Below, piece by piece: positions 3,665 to 9,719 of a stretch of 39,267 nt of DNA. Made by a program: the position numbers and the translations under genes. This stretch comes from a virus, in IMG/VR virus record IMGVR_UViG_3300005731_000018, positions 1-39,267 of that record. One strand, 5' to 3'. Position 1 is the first letter of the stretch. Every line of letters starts with the position of its first letter. The notes beneath the pieces were generated by a model, which did not search any database, was not told where the DNA came from, and saw nothing but the letters and a program-made list of their open reading frames with translations.

Positions 3665-4033
3665 TTACTCCTCGGAGAGGAGGTCCTGCCAGTCCACGTC
3701 GTTGCGTTCAAGAGCAGCAATCACGCCCTTAGCCGTGGTAGCCGTCGTCTTGATGCCTTCTGCTTCACACACTGCGAGGAGTGCTTCAACTTCAGGTTCC
3801 AAGACAACTTCCTCCACTGCATCCACATCGAAGATTTCCGGTTCACTGACCGGAGTCATCGATGCACCGAGGGCTTCACTGTCCTTGACTTTCACGTGAC
3901 CCGCACGAAGCAAACGGGCTTCCAGGGCCGGGGATTCCGACGCCTGGAAGTACCCATTCACTACTGGGGTACGTTGCCGGTGGGCGAGGCTGATAGAGCC
4001 GTTTGTCAGTCCGTTACAACGCCAGTAAGCCAT
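3665..4033 (-). CDS. 122-aa protein following the major capsid protein
   Basis: ATG at 4033 is 11 nt after the capsid stop. The reading frame is open further upstream but that part overlaps the capsid gene. The C-terminal third (ALLAVCEAEGIKTTATTAKG onward to DWQDLLSEE) resembles a small helix-extension-helix (SAP/HeH-like) domain as found at the C-termini of phage neck proteins. The middle is acidic. The position suggests a head completion or decoration role; no exact family is recognised. Confidence 0.65.
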   Translation of the reverse strand: MAYWRCNGLTNGSISLAHRQRTPVVNGYFQASESPALEARLLRAGHVKVKDSEALGASMTPVSEPEIFDVDAVEEVVLEPEVEALLAVCEAEGIKTTATTAKGVIAALERNDVDWQDLLSEE

Positions 4034-4043
4034 ACAGCACCGT

Positions 4044-5267
4044 TTAGATGTCGTAGGACTGGAGCCACTTGCACAAGGCACCGGCACCCTTCAGGATGGG
4101 GGCACCGAACTCGTACACGACGAGGCGGTCACTGAGACCGATGCGGCCAAGGGGCACAGTGGACAGGGGCACGAGTTCACGGAACTCGAATTCGCGGCGG
4201 TTCATGATGAACACGTCACCCTCGTCACCCACGGTGTAAGCGCCGTCAGTGTGCGTGTCAACGCTGTGGGAAGCGATGATGGGCACACCGGACGCGTACA
4301 GGACGTTGAAGCCGAAGTTGATGCTGTTCGTGTTCTCATCGACGCGAGCAGTCACTTCGATTTCGTTTTCCAGGTGGTCGAACAGGGTGTGGCTCGTCCA
4401 GATTTCCAGGTCCGCCTTGTTGACGGCGAAGGGACCCTGAAGGAGGTCCTTGATTTCGGATTTAATGTCCTCGAAGAGGGGCTTGTCCGTGCCAGCAGTG
4501 GTCGGGTCGAGGTCAACGCTGGACTTGAGGACACTGTTGCCAGCGTCATCAATGATTTTAGCGAAGCCTTCATAGACATCGGCGTCACCGATGCCACCAG
4601 TGCCAGTCGCTTGGGCGGGGTCGCCGTACAGCATGGCCTTCTCTTTGAGTTGGGCGTGTTCCGCGATGCGTTGTCCGAGGGCAGTGTCGCGGACGTCGAG
4701 GTAGTGGCCGCTGGCAGCGACGGTGAAGTCACTGACGTCCACTTTGTCCAGGTAGATTTCCATGTCCACTTCGATTTGAGCGAACGTGGCTTCGTTGCTA
4801 CCGGCACTGCTCATGTCAATGGCGTCCGCTTCGGAACTGAATCCAATGGGGGCGTCACGGGCACTGATGCGGTTCACGACGGCCTTGTAGCCCTGCTGTC
4901 CAACGTGAGGGACGCGCTCCACGAGGGGAGCAGCGGCCTTCAGGATTTCCAGGACGTCAGGGTCGAACACGAGGGGCACAGCGCCGCCAACGGTGTTGCC
5001 ACCGAGGACGGATTCATCGTATGCCTTCGTGACGGCATCCTTCGTGGTCGCGCCGGGGGCGTGAGCCTTGATGGCGTTGTTGACCCAGAAGCCCTTGAAT
5101 TTCTCGCGCACTTCAGCGTGGCGGAAAATGTCTTGGCGGCTCTTGGACACGCGGCCCTCACCCGTAATGTTACGGGAGGGAATACCGTGGCGTTCGTATG
5201 CGTTCTTAAAGGCGGCTTCCGGGTCATTCAGACCGAGAACCGCGAGGGTGTTAGGGTTCTTTCCCAT
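4044..5267 (-). CDS. Major capsid protein (HK97 fold, 407 aa)
   Basis: ATG at 5267 follows AAGGAG by 8 nt. Assignment rests on length, on its position right after the protease-scaffold gene, and on HK97-like features: an N-terminal helical arm (about 1-90), a central spine and E-loop segment, and a C-terminal part in which FIMNRREFEFRELVPLSTVPLG leads into DRLVVYEFGAPILK. There is no transmembrane segment. It forms the icosahedral shell after maturation by the upstream protease. The N-terminal region to about residue 80 could be a delta-domain that the protease removes, but the cleavage point is not visible. Confidence 0.85.
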   Translation of the reverse strand: MGKNPNTLAVLGLNDPEAAFKNAYERHGIPSRNITGEGRVSKSRQDIFRHAEVREKFKGFWVNNAIKAHAPGATTKDAVTKAYDESVLGGNTVGGAVPLVFDPDVLEILKAAAPLVERVPHVGQQGYKAVVNRISARDAPIGFSSEADAIDMSSAGSNEATFAQIEVDMEIYLDKVDVSDFTVAASGHYLDVRDTALGQRIAEHAQLKEKAMLYGDPAQATGTGGIGDADVYEGFAKIIDDAGNSVLKSSVDLDPTTAGTDKPLFEDIKSEIKDLLQGPFAVNKADLEIWTSHTLFDHLENEIEVTARVDENTNSINFGFNVLYASGVPIIASHSVDTHTDGAYTVGDEGDVFIMNRREFEFRELVPLSTVPLGRIGLSDRLVVYEFGAPILKGAGALCKWLQSYDI

Positions 5268-5301
5268 GTTAATTTCTCCTTTGGTTCTATTGTCCCATGA
5301 C

Positions 5302-5748
5302 CTAGTAAGCGCGTCCCGCGTTGGGGGCCACGTGTTTCAGGTACTCGGGGAGTTCACTGCGTTCTTCAGTTGATTCGGTGGCGGCGGCCTTAGTGGCCAC
5401 CATGCCTCGGGGAGTCGGCTTAACGGATTTCTCCTCATCCTCCTCCTCGTCGTCAGCCATTTTCTCCTCTTCCGAGTCCTCCATGGCGTCCTTCTCCTCA
5501 TCATCTTCGCACATCTTCTCTTCGTCTTCTTCGTCCTCCATCTCCTTAAGAGACTCAGCGACAGCAGACTTAATGAGAGTCTTGAGGTCAAGGTCCGCGA
5601 AAGCGGATTTGACAACATCAGCGATATTCGTTTCAGTTTCAACAACGGCAGACTTGGCTTCCTTAACGGGAGCCTCCTCAGCCACAGTCTCAACGGACTT
5701 GGTTTCTTCAATGGCCTCAGTGGCCGCTTCTTCAGTGGTCTTGCCCAT
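5302..5748 (-). CDS. Nested scaffold protein by internal initiation (148 aa)
   Basis: In frame within the protease gene, codon 213 is an ATG preceded by a full GGAGG with an 8-nt spacer (positions 5757-5761). Starting here gives only the acidic coiled scaffold part without the catalytic residues. This matches the established lambda C/Nu3 arrangement, in which scaffold is made in excess from an internal start. The site is seen in the sequence; its use is inferred. Confidence 0.6.
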   Translation of the reverse strand: MGKTTEEAATEAIEETKSVETVAEEAPVKEAKSAVVETETNIADVVKSAFADLDLKTLIKSAVAESLKEMEDEEDEEKMCEDDEEKDAMEDSEEEKMADDEEEDEEKSVKPTPRGMVATKAAATESTEERSELPEYLKHVAPNAGRAY

Positions 5749-6384
5749 AGGCTTGTCCTCCATGAAAGCGGCTTGCATGGCCGCACGGAGTTCAGGATCT
5801 CCGGGTTTCACGCCGGATTTCTGGATGACTGCCGCGAGTTTATCAACGGCGTCAGGATTCGAGGGGATACCAACTGCGCTGACTTCAAACAAGTCGCAGT
5901 CGTGGAATACGCGTCCGCCATTGTCTTTGGCTTCAGAGTCTTTCGGAGCGAAACCGACACTGTAACCAATGGGGAGTCCCGCCTGGGTTTTCTGTGCTAG
6001 GACGACTCCGCGCCAGTCTTCAGTGTCGAGCCTAGCCGTACCGTACAATGTCTTGCCTTCAATGTACGCGTCGATCCAGACGCCAATCATGTCAGTGACT
6101 CCGTAACGGGGGCTGCCCATTCCGGCGTCACCGTGGTCTAGGTACAAGGGGACGCGGCCTTCCTTGAGTTGCTGCATCATGCACTTGAGGCCATCCATGC
6201 TGAATTCGTCGCCATCGCGGTCCTCGGACACGCTGCTGATGGGGACGGTGATGGTGGTTCCGTCGTCGGCTTCCTTGATGCCTTTGGCAATGACTAGCGT
6301 GGTGGCCGTCTTTAGTCGGCCTTGGTGGCCTTGTTCCAACTGCATCCCAAGGGCTTCATCGTTATTGGGGGGTCTTAATGGCAC
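5302..6384 (-). CDS. Prohead protease (U35-like) fused to scaffold domain
   Basis: GTG at 6384 is 12 nt after the portal-MuF stop, with TAGGAAAC just upstream. Residues 25-190 carry the U35/HK97 prohead protease pattern: His84 in LYLDHGD, Ser142 in IGYSVGF, and the signature DLFEVSAVGIPSNPDA at about 164-179. After residue 210 the protein becomes a low-complexity Glu/Lys/Asp-rich helix typical of scaffolding proteins and ends in ELPEYLKHVAPNAGRAY. The protease would cut scaffold and capsid arms inside the procapsid. An internal start at 5748 probably yields free scaffold. Confidence 0.88.
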   Translation of the reverse strand: MPLRPPNNDEALGMQLEQGHQGRLKTATTLVIAKGIKEADDGTTITVPISSVSEDRDGDEFSMDGLKCMMQQLKEGRVPLYLDHGDAGMGSPRYGVTDMIGVWIDAYIEGKTLYGTARLDTEDWRGVVLAQKTQAGLPIGYSVGFAPKDSEAKDNGGRVFHDCDLFEVSAVGIPSNPDAVDKLAAVIQKSGVKPGDPELRAAMQAAFMEDKPMGKTTEEAATEAIEETKSVETVAEEAPVKEAKSAVVETETNIADVVKSAFADLDLKTLIKSAVAESLKEMEDEEDEEKMCEDDEEKDAMEDSEEEKMADDEEEDEEKSVKPTPRGMVATKAAATESTEERSELPEYLKHVAPNAGRAY

Positions 6385-6395
6385 CGTTTCCTAGG

Positions 6396-9300
6396 TTACA
6401 CTTTGAGCCATTCGTATAGGGTGTTGCGGCCCACACCGAACCGCTTAGCCAAAGCACTCCTGTTCCCATCATCCAAGCGCTTCAACAAAGCAGGGAACGA
6501 CTCACCCTTCAAACCATGCCTAGCAAGGACATCGTACTGCTTCACCGTCAAATCATCCGTGAACAACGGCGAATCCTTCACGTGGACACCCAGTTCACTT
6601 AGGGCTTTCAGGTTCGAGGGCATATCCTCACGGAGAACCGGAACCTGAGTACACCGACAGTTCTTTGATACTATACCTTCTGCGAAGTACCAACCATGAG
6701 CCGTGGACGAATCATACACATCCCCCGCATAGGAAAAGACCTCGACCTTGACAACCTCATCGAACGCTACCAATCCGGGGTGTCGCTTTTGCAGTTGTCG
6801 AAGGAGTGTGGTATCTCCAGACCGACCCTCGCCCGTCACTTGGGGAAGGTCACGGATTTGCGAGGGCGCTCCGAGGCGGAGAAGTTGAAGTGGAGCCGGA
6901 TGGACAAGACCACTCGACGCAATCAACTCAAAGCCGCTCATGACGCTCGACGGGGAAGCACTGCTTCCGACGAGGAGCGAAGGCGCAAGGCCCTCGCCCG
7001 TTGTCGTCGTGTCGGTAGGCATGAAGATACCCTCCATGACAGGCTCACCGAACGTGGCCTCAACATCCTCCAGCAACATCCCTGGACTGCCTACAACTTG
7101 GACATGGCCGTCCCCGAAATCCGTGTCGCCGTGGAGGTGACGGCCTCCAATCAAATGACTCGTGCTTGCGGCAGGGAACGCCTCAAACACCTCCTCGATG
7201 GTGGATGGAAGCCCTTGATGGTAGTGCTTGGCTCCGGCGTCCTTCACTTGGACCGTGTGGCGGACAAGGTTGTCGCCTGGGCCAATCATGCCAGCGGCCT
7301 TCCAGCCGGAATCAGTGAGTATGGGGTGGTTCGGGGTGACGGAGAGCCGCTTGCCCGACGCCGTGACCAACCGGACGGCAGGACCATCGTACCGGAGTTT
7401 TGACGCTCCAGTGAATGTGCCTTCGACCTTGGTGTCTGGTAGGAAGCAGTTGAATGGGGAATCTTCCCCCACGAGGTACGCGGGACGCGGGTAATTCTTC
7501 GGTTGCGTTGCGTCCCCTGTTTGTGGAACCGTGAACGTGCTGTTCTTAGGAACAATCACGCCATCCATCGCGAGGTGCCAGGAACGCGTCCGTGCGTCCT
7601 TCGTCGCCAACCACTGCTTACCCTGCACAACGTCACTCGTGTCCATGAACGCTTGCGCCCCACCACGACTACCCGTCAAAGTCTCAGTACGGGCAACAAG
7701 GCGACTATGAGAATCACTGAGAACCGTGAAGCGATTCTTCAAGTCCTCCGCGATGTTGAACACGGATTCACCATTCTTCACGGCATCCGTCACCACACCC
7801 CTAATGCCGCGTTTCACGGTATCACTCACCGTCGTCATACGGGACGCAGCGGCTTGTGAGAGGAGTTTCACTGTCCGGGTGTCCTCCACGTCAAACATGA
7901 GTTCCAAGTCAGGTGCATCATCACCTAGAGTGGCTTTGATGGCTTCCGCCGTCTTACCCGCCGTATGCTTCGCGCCCCTGTTAATGGATTCAAGGATGAA
8001 CGGCATGGACCGCTTAGCAAGACGACCCGCAATGCCAAGACTCGCGAGAATCTTCTCAATGTCAAACAAGATGCCTTTCTGTTGTTGACTATCAAGAATC
8101 TCCTTCACCAAGTCATCCCCAATGCTGAGGAATTCCTCTTCCAATGCTTTCTGGAACCGCGCCGCGAGTCCTACGACCGGAGCATGATCCCCAGTGCTTT
8201 GCTCGTTACGGAGAGCATCCTTGAATTCCTGGTCAAAAGGGAGGCGTTCCTCATCCCCCTCATCAACGCCTTTAGTGGTGGGCGTGGATGCGGATAGGAA
8301 TCCGAGTCCGAGGTTATCCTCTGGGGGTAGTTCCTTTTCGGGGACGCCGTGCCATTGCTGCAACGCCCAACGCGGGGATTGACGAGCGAGGGTGTCTGCG
8401 AGGCTGGCGGGGAAGTCACCCCAAGGCACTTCATCCAAGCCCCTGCGACGACGCACCTCATTCACCGTGGCAAGACCCGACGACAAGTCCTCTTGGTCCT
8501 TTTGGCGCTCCAAGGCTTGAATATCCGGGTTATCCCACTCCCACTCAAACACGAGTCCACCACCAATGCGGCGATAGGGTTCCAGGAAGGGGAGGATTTT
8601 CCGGTTAATGTGATTCGCCAGCATCTCCATCAAGGGACGCGTGGTGCGACGGAACACCGTCGTCGCTTGCTCCTGAGCCGTTGCGCGGTTCAAGTCAGCG
8701 ACGTCACCCACCTCATTCTGATTGAGGCCGAAAGTCATCCACACCAATTTATGGTACCACTCCTGCGAATCCAGGAATTGAAGGTCCGTCAAGTGAGGAC
8801 GGAACGGAATGAAGTTAGCATCCCCACCCAAGATGGGAAGTTTATGCTCTTGGCCCTGCACTTCTTCTTTCCAGTAGGACCGGAAGCGTTGCAATTCATT
8901 CCCGTGAGCATCCGGGATGCTGAGCAATCCTTCCGGGATTTCATTGTGAGTGAAGTACTTCAGGTTCGTGACGTCCTGGTTTAATAGGATTTCAACGAGT
9001 CGCCGCACCTTTTGGACGCGGCCCCTGCCGTAAGCATCCTTGGTGCGGGGATTCTCTTCCGCCCACACGATTTCATCCCTGCTGAAGGGAATAGGTTTCG
9101 TGAAGCCTTGCGCCTGTTGCGCCAGGGGAGTCTCCTGCAACAAGTCATACAAGTCGCTGCGGCTACTATGAGTCCTGGCCGCCACAGCGTAATTGTGACT
9201 GAACTGGTAATACGCGGGACGGTCACTACCCGCCTCCGGGAAGCGCCCATGCTGGTCGAGGTTCTTAACAAAAGACAACCCGTCACGGGCATACATCTCC

Positions 9301-9719
9301 GTCAAGTTACCCTCCTCATCAGGAACGAGTTCCAGGACGCCACTGTCAATGCTTAGGGTGTCACCAATCCACGCCTTGAGTAAGTGGTCGAAGGTTTCAC
9401 TGTTGACGTTGAAGCCGCCTTCAAGCCACTCCATCAACTCCTCAATGGCCGCTTCCTGTTCACGATCCGGTGACTCATCCTCATCCTTCAAGCGGACTAG
9501 CCAGGGAGTGGTGGACACTTGCGTCTTAATGGTGTCCATTGGAATATCGACGGCGTGAGTGTCCTCTAGGAGTCGGATGCCGTACAAGTCATCGAGGCGG
9601 GGAACACCGAAACCCCGTGTATTGTACAGGAAACTATTCCCGAAGGCTTGGGGACCACGGCCCCCGGCTCCATTGAAAGTGCGGAGGGCGCTGCCCTCAT
9701 TGATGTTCATTACAGGCAT
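6396..9719 (-). CDS. Portal-MuF fusion protein interrupted by an intein (1107 aa; 844 aa after splicing)
   Basis: The ATG at 9719 lies just after a 39-aa gene. Residues 1 to about 480 are a portal protein (crown, stem and wing pattern, including FGLNQNEVGDVADLNRATA, typical of HK97/SPP1-like portals). A MuF minor head domain follows (LVARTETLTGSRGGAQAF, then QWLATKDARTRSWH). The MuF Cys-x-Cys motif is interrupted by an intein at residues 758-1020. The last 35 residues resemble a helix-turn-helix (SALAKRFGVGRNTLYEWLKV). The portal forms the DNA entry ring; MuF proteins enter the head. Fusion of portal and MuF in one chain is uncommon. Confidence 0.88.
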   Translation of the reverse strand: MPVMNINEGSALRTFNGAGGRGPQAFGNSFLYNTRGFGVPRLDDLYGIRLLEDTHAVDIPMDTIKTQVSTTPWLVRLKDEDESPDREQEAAIEELMEWLEGGFNVNSETFDHLLKAWIGDTLSIDSGVLELVPDEEGNLTEMYARDGLSFVKNLDQHGRFPEAGSDRPAYYQFSHNYAVAARTHSSRSDLYDLLQETPLAQQAQGFTKPIPFSRDEIVWAEENPRTKDAYGRGRVQKVRRLVEILLNQDVTNLKYFTHNEIPEGLLSIPDAHGNELQRFRSYWKEEVQGQEHKLPILGGDANFIPFRPHLTDLQFLDSQEWYHKLVWMTFGLNQNEVGDVADLNRATAQEQATTVFRRTTRPLMEMLANHINRKILPFLEPYRRIGGGLVFEWEWDNPDIQALERQKDQEDLSSGLATVNEVRRRRGLDEVPWGDFPASLADTLARQSPRWALQQWHGVPEKELPPEDNLGLGFLSASTPTTKGVDEGDEERLPFDQEFKDALRNEQSTGDHAPVVGLAARFQKALEEEFLSIGDDLVKEILDSQQQKGILFDIEKILASLGIAGRLAKRSMPFILESINRGAKHTAGKTAEAIKATLGDDAPDLELMFDVEDTRTVKLLSQAAASRMTTVSDTVKRGIRGVVTDAVKNGESVFNIAEDLKNRFTVLSDSHSRLVARTETLTGSRGGAQAFMDTSDVVQGKQWLATKDARTRSWHLAMDGVIVPKNSTFTVPQTGDATQPKNYPRPAYLVGEDSPFNCFLPDTKVEGTFTGASKLRYDGPAVRLVTASGKRLSVTPNHPILTDSGWKAAGMIGPGDNLVRHTVQVKDAGAKHYHQGLPSTIEEVFEAFPAASTSHLIGGRHLHGDTDFGDGHVQVVGSPGMLLEDVEATFGEPVMEGIFMPTDTTTTGEGLAPSLLVGSSASPSSVMSGFELIASSGLVHPAPLQLLRLGAPSQIRDLPQVTGEGRSGDTTLLRQLQKRHPGLVAFDEVVKVEVFSYAGDVYDSSTAHGWYFAEGIVSKNCRCTQVPVLREDMPSNLKALSELGVHVKDSPLFTDDLTVKQYDVLARHGLKGESFPALLKRLDDGNRSALAKRFGVGRNTLYEWLKV
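6660..7448 (-). other. Intein (HINT domain), 263 codons within portal-MuF
   Basis: The segment begins with Cys1 (CFLPDTKVEG, block A), carries the block B motif with Asn-His (SVTPNHPILT, intein residues 36-45), then GWKAAGMIGPGDNL (block N4-like). It ends with block F/G (YAGDVYDSSTAHGWYF, then GIVSKN), and Cys is the first C-extein residue. The penultimate residue is Lys instead of the usual His, a known variation. It interrupts MuF as SPFN/CRC. About 160 residues between N- and C-terminal splicing parts match no endonuclease in this frame. A nuclease-like gene lies on the opposite strand here. Confidence 0.9.
6696..7403 (+). CDS. Putative homing endonuclease (HTH + Vsr/EDxHD-like), antisense inside the intein
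   Basis: This is the only convincing plus-strand gene: 235 codons lying wholly within the 789-base intein. Residues 18-50 form a helix-turn-helix (LIERYQSGVSLLQLSKECGI, then SRPTLARHLG). Residues 105-195 look like the Vsr-type restriction fold of EDxHD homing endonucleases: E110 and D111 in RHEDTLHDRL, D136 in AYNLDMAVP, E147 in RVAVEV, and a GW at 170-171 before the strand PLMVVLG. No Shine-Dalgarno is seen. A TATA-like CTATAC lies about 23 nt upstream, so the message may be leaderless. It would cut intein-free alleles to spread the element. Codons of the nuclease core lie opposite the variable middle of the intein. Confidence 0.75.
   Translation: MSRGRIIHIPRIGKDLDLDNLIERYQSGVSLLQLSKECGISRPTLARHLGKVTDLRGRSEAEKLKWSRMDKTTRRNQLKAAHDARRGSTASDEERRRKALARCRRVGRHEDTLHDRLTERGLNILQQHPWTAYNLDMAVPEIRVAVEVTASNQMTRACGRERLKHLLDGGWKPLMVVLGSGVLHLDRVADKVVAWANHASGLPAGISEYGVVRGDGEPLARRRDQPDGRTIVPEF

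Follow-up and report, generated by a model that had tools for sequence, protein, structure and literature searches.

The 39,267-nucleotide stretch of viral DNA analysed here (IMG/VR virus record IMGVR_UViG_3300005731_000018, positions 1 to 39,267; hereafter the window) carries on its minus strand a gene for a portal-MuF fusion protein (6396–9719; Pfam Phage_portal, E 6.4e-23, and Phage_Mu_F, E 4.3e-10), which hosts a continuous intein of 263 amino acids (6660–7448, minus strand; insertion N/C...N/CRC, slashes marking the borders) at a MuF site common to about 100 relatives. The intein coordinates agree exactly with the original prediction: Cys1 is encoded at 7446–7448 and its final Asn at 6660–6662, and the residue after it is Cys (CRC). 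The match to PF14890 (E 3.6e-7) fell under the curated cut-off. An N-terminal Cys, TxxH in block B, a terminal Asn, Cys at +1 and a HINT fold were present as in inteins, and inteins dominated the Foldseek list for the modelled protein. The N-terminal splicing block (blocks A and B, TPNHP; 7254–7448, minus strand) and the C-terminal splicing block (blocks F and G; 6660–6752, minus strand), both sense-selected in relatives, were modelled with high confidence (pLDDT 93–98 for residues 1–60 and 94–98, respectively) and form the HINT fold at the two ends. Between them, residues of about 80–125 had modest confidence and residues 133–209 were disordered (pLDDT <50); this middle (6804–7253) is the part whose coding appears, from the substitution bias in relatives and the disorder of the sense model, to be selected mainly on the plus strand.

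As had been predicted, no endonuclease match was found in the sense frame of the window intein. EDxHD enzymes are known to occur beside split inteins, and the locus might accordingly be a fractured or split intein, or one with an in-frame endonuclease, that has been misread; however, the intein halves do not lie in separate genes as in the fractured layout, the sense frame being continuous in the window and in all 80 loci retrieved with intein seeds, and together with the lack of a sense-frame endonuclease match this leaves such a misreading hardly credible. Two further observations concern the host gene. The C-terminus of the MuF protein (6396–6485) is a helix-turn-helix-like segment (CENP-B_N, E 0.0012), which is unusual in a capsid protein. 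Also, the public PHROG 'head protein' profile phrog_15127 matches 6660–7448, i.e. the intein sequence itself, so that the intein seems to have been built into this profile as though it belonged to the head protein.

On the plus strand, opposite the intein, lies an open frame of 235 codons (6696–7403), exactly where the original prediction had placed it, which we assign as a predicted antisense homing endonuclease gene. Its codons are in exact antiparallel register with those of the intein, sense positions 1, 2 and 3 standing opposite antisense positions 3, 2 and 1, and for this reason an antisense stop can arise only at sense TTA, CTA or TCA. Because of this register and the GC-richness of the window (55% GC), openness by itself is weak evidence and was rejected as a stand-alone argument; GC content by codon position in the window was uninformative. 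The frame could then be a by-product, in which exact register, a conserved intein and a GC-rich genome give an open frame and a spurious similarity, and the window indeed has other long antisense ORFs, such as one of 349 amino acids opposite the gene at 4044–5267. Against this, about 303 antisense stops would be expected in 78 non-redundant copies and none was observed, including in the subset with GC <50% (153 expected, 0 observed). By such sequence conservation the antisense ORF of the window is raised above chance.

The encoded protein was modelled with a pLDDT of 88.9 and a nuclease fold, whereas much of the matching sense stretch was below 50. A helix-turn-helix at residues 18–50 (6747–6845, plus strand), proposed from the letters alone, was borne out by three modelled helices and weak Pfam HTH matches. 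It is followed by a nuclease core of the Vsr/EDxHD/DUF559 type (7008–7295, plus strand; E110, D136, E147, R162 and G170). A lack of resemblance to Vsr/EDxHD folds had been named in advance as evidence against an endonuclease; instead, I-Bth0305I, Vsr and NGO0050 took the top Foldseek ranks, at modest E-values (0.004–0.02), and VIA-align gave Z scores of 11.7 for Vsr and 10.6 for I-Bth0305I, with a third value of 10.7. A profile of the antisense family matched PDB sequences 3hrl (1.3e-7), I-Bth0305I (8.3e-5) and Vsr (0.011), and 51 of 57 antisense-nuclease members matched Pfam MTES_1575 at E 0.01 or better. The conserved core comprises E110, Y133-N134-x-D136, A145-V146-E147, R162 and G170; across 78 copies its D and E are invariant and E110 is present in 73. 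Of the residues originally proposed, E110, D136 and E147 belong to this conserved core and are retained in the window copy, and D111 is not conserved. The W153-H154 pair that usually follows E147 is Q-M in the window, His being found there in 65 of 78 copies. Direct intein-free homologues of the protein were not found in the fetched loci, a search seeded from intein-borne copies, and the identity of the nuclease consequently rests on profiles and fold, which support a helix-turn-helix protein with a Vsr/EDxHD-type nuclease as a putative cleaving enzyme. With I-Bth0305I (PDB 3r3p; reviewed in PMC3943268) it shares the nuclease fold, the profile match, an extra DNA-binding region and residence in a phage element; the gene of I-Bth0305I is, however, not described as antisense inside an intein, whereas here the enzyme is read opposite a splicing protein.

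A tblastn search with the antisense protein retrieved 124 phage records (Gordonia, Salmonella, Pseudomonas, Vibrio, Klebsiella, Haemophilus Aaphi23 and others), and further relatives were found in IMG/VR (187 and 18) and in bacterial genome contigs (four). In each of 15 phage records fetched from these hits, a single uninterrupted coding sequence faced the match; most of these sequences bear a MuF, minor-head or hypothetical annotation, and the antisense ORF is annotated in none of the records. Among nuclease-seeded loci, 117 of 119 had both intein splicing blocks opposite and in register; in the two exceptions (L024 and L088) only the N block was found, at least L024 beginning at a contig end. 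Conversely, an antisense nuclease was present in all 80 intein-seeded loci (157 bits or more), although the use of whole inteins as seeds may have left inteins with a different middle under-represented. Nearly all inteins occupied one MuF site, N/C...N/C[RK]C, with a second site in Mycobacterium phage Sejanus and a third in one locus (L031). In that locus a MuF gene (sense frame 3887–6745) contains two inteins in tandem, both of which carry an HTH-EDxHD nuclease in antisense; the first of them occupies the third site (RTE/T). Judged by these searches, the layout is widespread and not peculiar to the window, being found in upwards of 100 phage records as well as in hundreds of viral contigs.

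In order to determine which strand is under selection, substitutions were counted by sense codon position in 15 pairs of relatives, as had been suggested beforehand. The exteins and splicing blocks varied mainly at sense position 3 (positions 1/2/3: N-extein, 246/191/588; intein N block, 119/53/239; intein C block, 44/35/115; C-extein, 151/122/317), whereas the wobble flipped to sense position 1 in the intein middle (844/290/471), with the position-1 bias in 15 of 15 pairs, indicating strongly that the middle is antisense-coding and under selection as an antisense protein and that the ends are sense-coding. In agreement with this, amino-acid identity of the middle was higher in antisense than in sense (77.9% and 62.3%), the order being reversed in the other regions. 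No IMG/VR relatives close to the MuF protein of the window were found, so the wobble test covers the relatives and not the lineage of the window; when the window was compared with 91 relatives, the middle scored higher in antisense in 91 of 91 and the splicing ends higher in sense in 91 of 91. The reversed bias refutes a by-product for the family and, taken with the stop counts and the model, leaves that account with scarcely any probability.

The antisense protein and the intein thus appear to be coded on opposite strands of one stretch, and their constraints could be mapped by column: antisense constraint at residues of about 19–135, sense constraint at the ends, and constraint on both strands at residues 144–148. 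This doubly constrained stretch (7125–7139; 78 copies) encodes VAVEV, including Glu 147, in antisense opposite [D][FL]HGD in sense; antisense A145 and E147 were conserved in 77 and 78 of 78 copies, sense H and G in 71 and 75 of 78, and the wobble base was fixed too. The sense-side constraint may reflect a role of the sense residues or a DNA element.

Several comparisons bear on mobility. Exteins of Gordonia and Pseudomonas phages were 99–100% identical with and without the intein, and exact empty alleles were found in close relatives of other copies (Geodirt, JBD44 and VSiA), none being found for the phage of the window itself; the insertion point fell precisely at the junction of the Asn and Cys codons. 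Between Salmonella phage ZS and VSiA, mismatches per 60 nt outward from the intein (14, 11, 6, 1, 0, 0 and 0 on the left; 13, 9, 6, 3 and 3 on the right) clustered close to the insertion, at distances up to about 180 nt, as expected of co-conversion, a footprint that was clear in this pair only and weak or absent in others. In one pair of loci (L110 and L008) the inteins were 93% identical and the exteins about 74%. The empty alleles, the exact insertion and the single footprint resembling co-conversion are sequence-level signs of homing.

In relatives the antisense start codon (ATG in 58 and GTG in 7 of 90) lies opposite the His codon of the sense motif GHVYNLQ, and a Shine-Dalgarno core match of at least 4 nt was present in 68 of 90, compared with 15% of control positions. 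The Leu codon at this position was CTC in 68 of 77 (22 expected), which spells a Shine-Dalgarno sequence on the other strand. In the window this site is degenerate (6707–6722, plus strand; GTGGACGAATCATACAC ATC): the homologous start codon reads ATC (6720), and no Shine-Dalgarno sequence is left. The alternative ATG at 6696, eight codons upstream, is without a good ribosome site, and a sigma-70 scan of the upstream plus strand revealed no promoter-like site in the window. Owing to the loss of the usual start and Shine-Dalgarno sequence, present expression of the window copy is uncertain; the gene may have begun to decay, or its start may be ATG 6696.

These features of the window, i.e. the missing start context and W-H pair, would suit an antisense protein that is real but does not act, or has stopped acting, as a homing enzyme, for instance a DNA-binding regulator or a decaying remnant, as would the stops found in the antisense frame of 3 of the 80 intein-seeded loci. 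Such loci, with the antisense frame broken and the intein intact, had been named beforehand, together with an absence of plus-strand RNA, as refuting the antisense gene; they do occur, but the frame was unbroken in the other 77 and the homing cycle predicts such cases. The three loci (L138, L145 and L183) have one or two stops in the nuclease frame, as expected of decaying homing genes. Strong purifying selection with the invariant core residues, together with recent transfer and the empty alleles, argues against a non-homing protein or remnant, and we regard it as unlikely.

Other nucleases were also found antisense to MuF inteins. In Gordonia phages Sitar, Lennon, Nordenberg, Thing3, Barsten and SchottB, a different intein at the same MuF site has an antisense frame for a LAGLIDADG-type protein, which matched phrog_5046 (E 1.1e-15; a profile named 'HNH endonuclease') with an own Pfam score of only E 0.26, and has free-standing endonuclease homologues in Cyanophage PP and in Caulobacter phages; the assignment follows from the phrog_5046 match and from the Cyanophage PP homologue, which itself matches LAGLIDADG_1 and _3 weakly. 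Between Sitar and Barsten, substitutions at positions 1/2/3 were 43/4/9 in the LAGLIDADG-type region and 5/3/31 in the N-extein, and this frame is under antisense selection in Sitar, Barsten, Lennon and Thing3 (L119, L120, L125 and L126). A single further locus (L030; 4499–5656, plus strand) has, opposite a second MuF intein, an antisense protein that combines zinc-ribbon-like repeats with a DUF559 nuclease domain. Because the Gordonia LAGLIDADG-type endonuclease is unrelated and sits at the same site, the antisense layout arose at least twice. It is probable that the antisense layout recurs among phage inteins as a selected architecture, with unrelated HTH-EDxHD, zinc-ribbon DUF559-type and LAGLIDADG-type enzymes at three or more MuF sites, and, where the EDxHD core lies opposite the constrained HGD, with both proteins dependent on the same codons.

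The computation supports selection on both frames, a nuclease fold, an exact insertion site, empty alleles and, in one pair, conversion-like flanks. We therefore read the locus, with a probability of about 0.88, as a continuous MuF intein carrying an antisense HTH-Vsr/EDxHD homing endonuclease, one stretch encoding both, as originally proposed; the wobble test, fold and conservation agree on this point. MuF mRNA would be translated into a precursor, of which the terminal blocks would fold as a HINT domain and splice, and the sense reading of the endonuclease region would be a partly disordered linker. A plus-strand transcript would yield a free HTH-Vsr/EDxHD nuclease, in most relatives from an ATG or GTG start with its Shine-Dalgarno sequence presumably hidden in the codons for HVYNLQ. 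The nuclease would cleave MuF sites lacking the intein, and the intein would be copied into them during repair.

Intein endonucleases are described as intein fusions (PMC3943268). Ordinary endonuclease-containing inteins, such as those of phage TerL (PMC5050341), likewise are mobile and have the endonuclease between blocks B and F, but as an in-frame fusion on the same strand. The ShiLan domain (PMC11855218) is also a phage insertion that is read through by its host gene and has an endonuclease in another frame; unlike the window element, which is on the opposite strand with a HINT domain, it is same-strand, of HNH type and without a splicing domain. In Porphyra, the complementary strand of nuclear group I introns contains ORFs for His-Cys endonucleases (PMC2585584). 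As here, these genes run antisense to an element that splices, but they lie in an RNA intron extension without dual protein coding, and the ORFs are often broken. No antisense intein endonuclease was described in the literature covered by our search, outside which fell two works that PMC11855218 cites for overlapping frames, Gosselin 2025 (bioRxiv 10.1101/2025.01.02.630785, 'Non-Canonical Architecture') and Gorbalenya 1998 ('Non-canonical inteins', PMC147447); a partial earlier description of the antisense layout is conceivable, though we lean against it.

The arrangement departs from the textbook rule that an intein endonuclease is an in-frame fusion, and provides a clean natural example of overlapping protein genes on opposite strands, in which selection differs along the stretch and can be mapped. 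It also accounts for an unannotated gene in more than 100 sequenced phages, and opens to test the origin of antisense genes and the expression of a homing enzyme against the direction of a structural gene.
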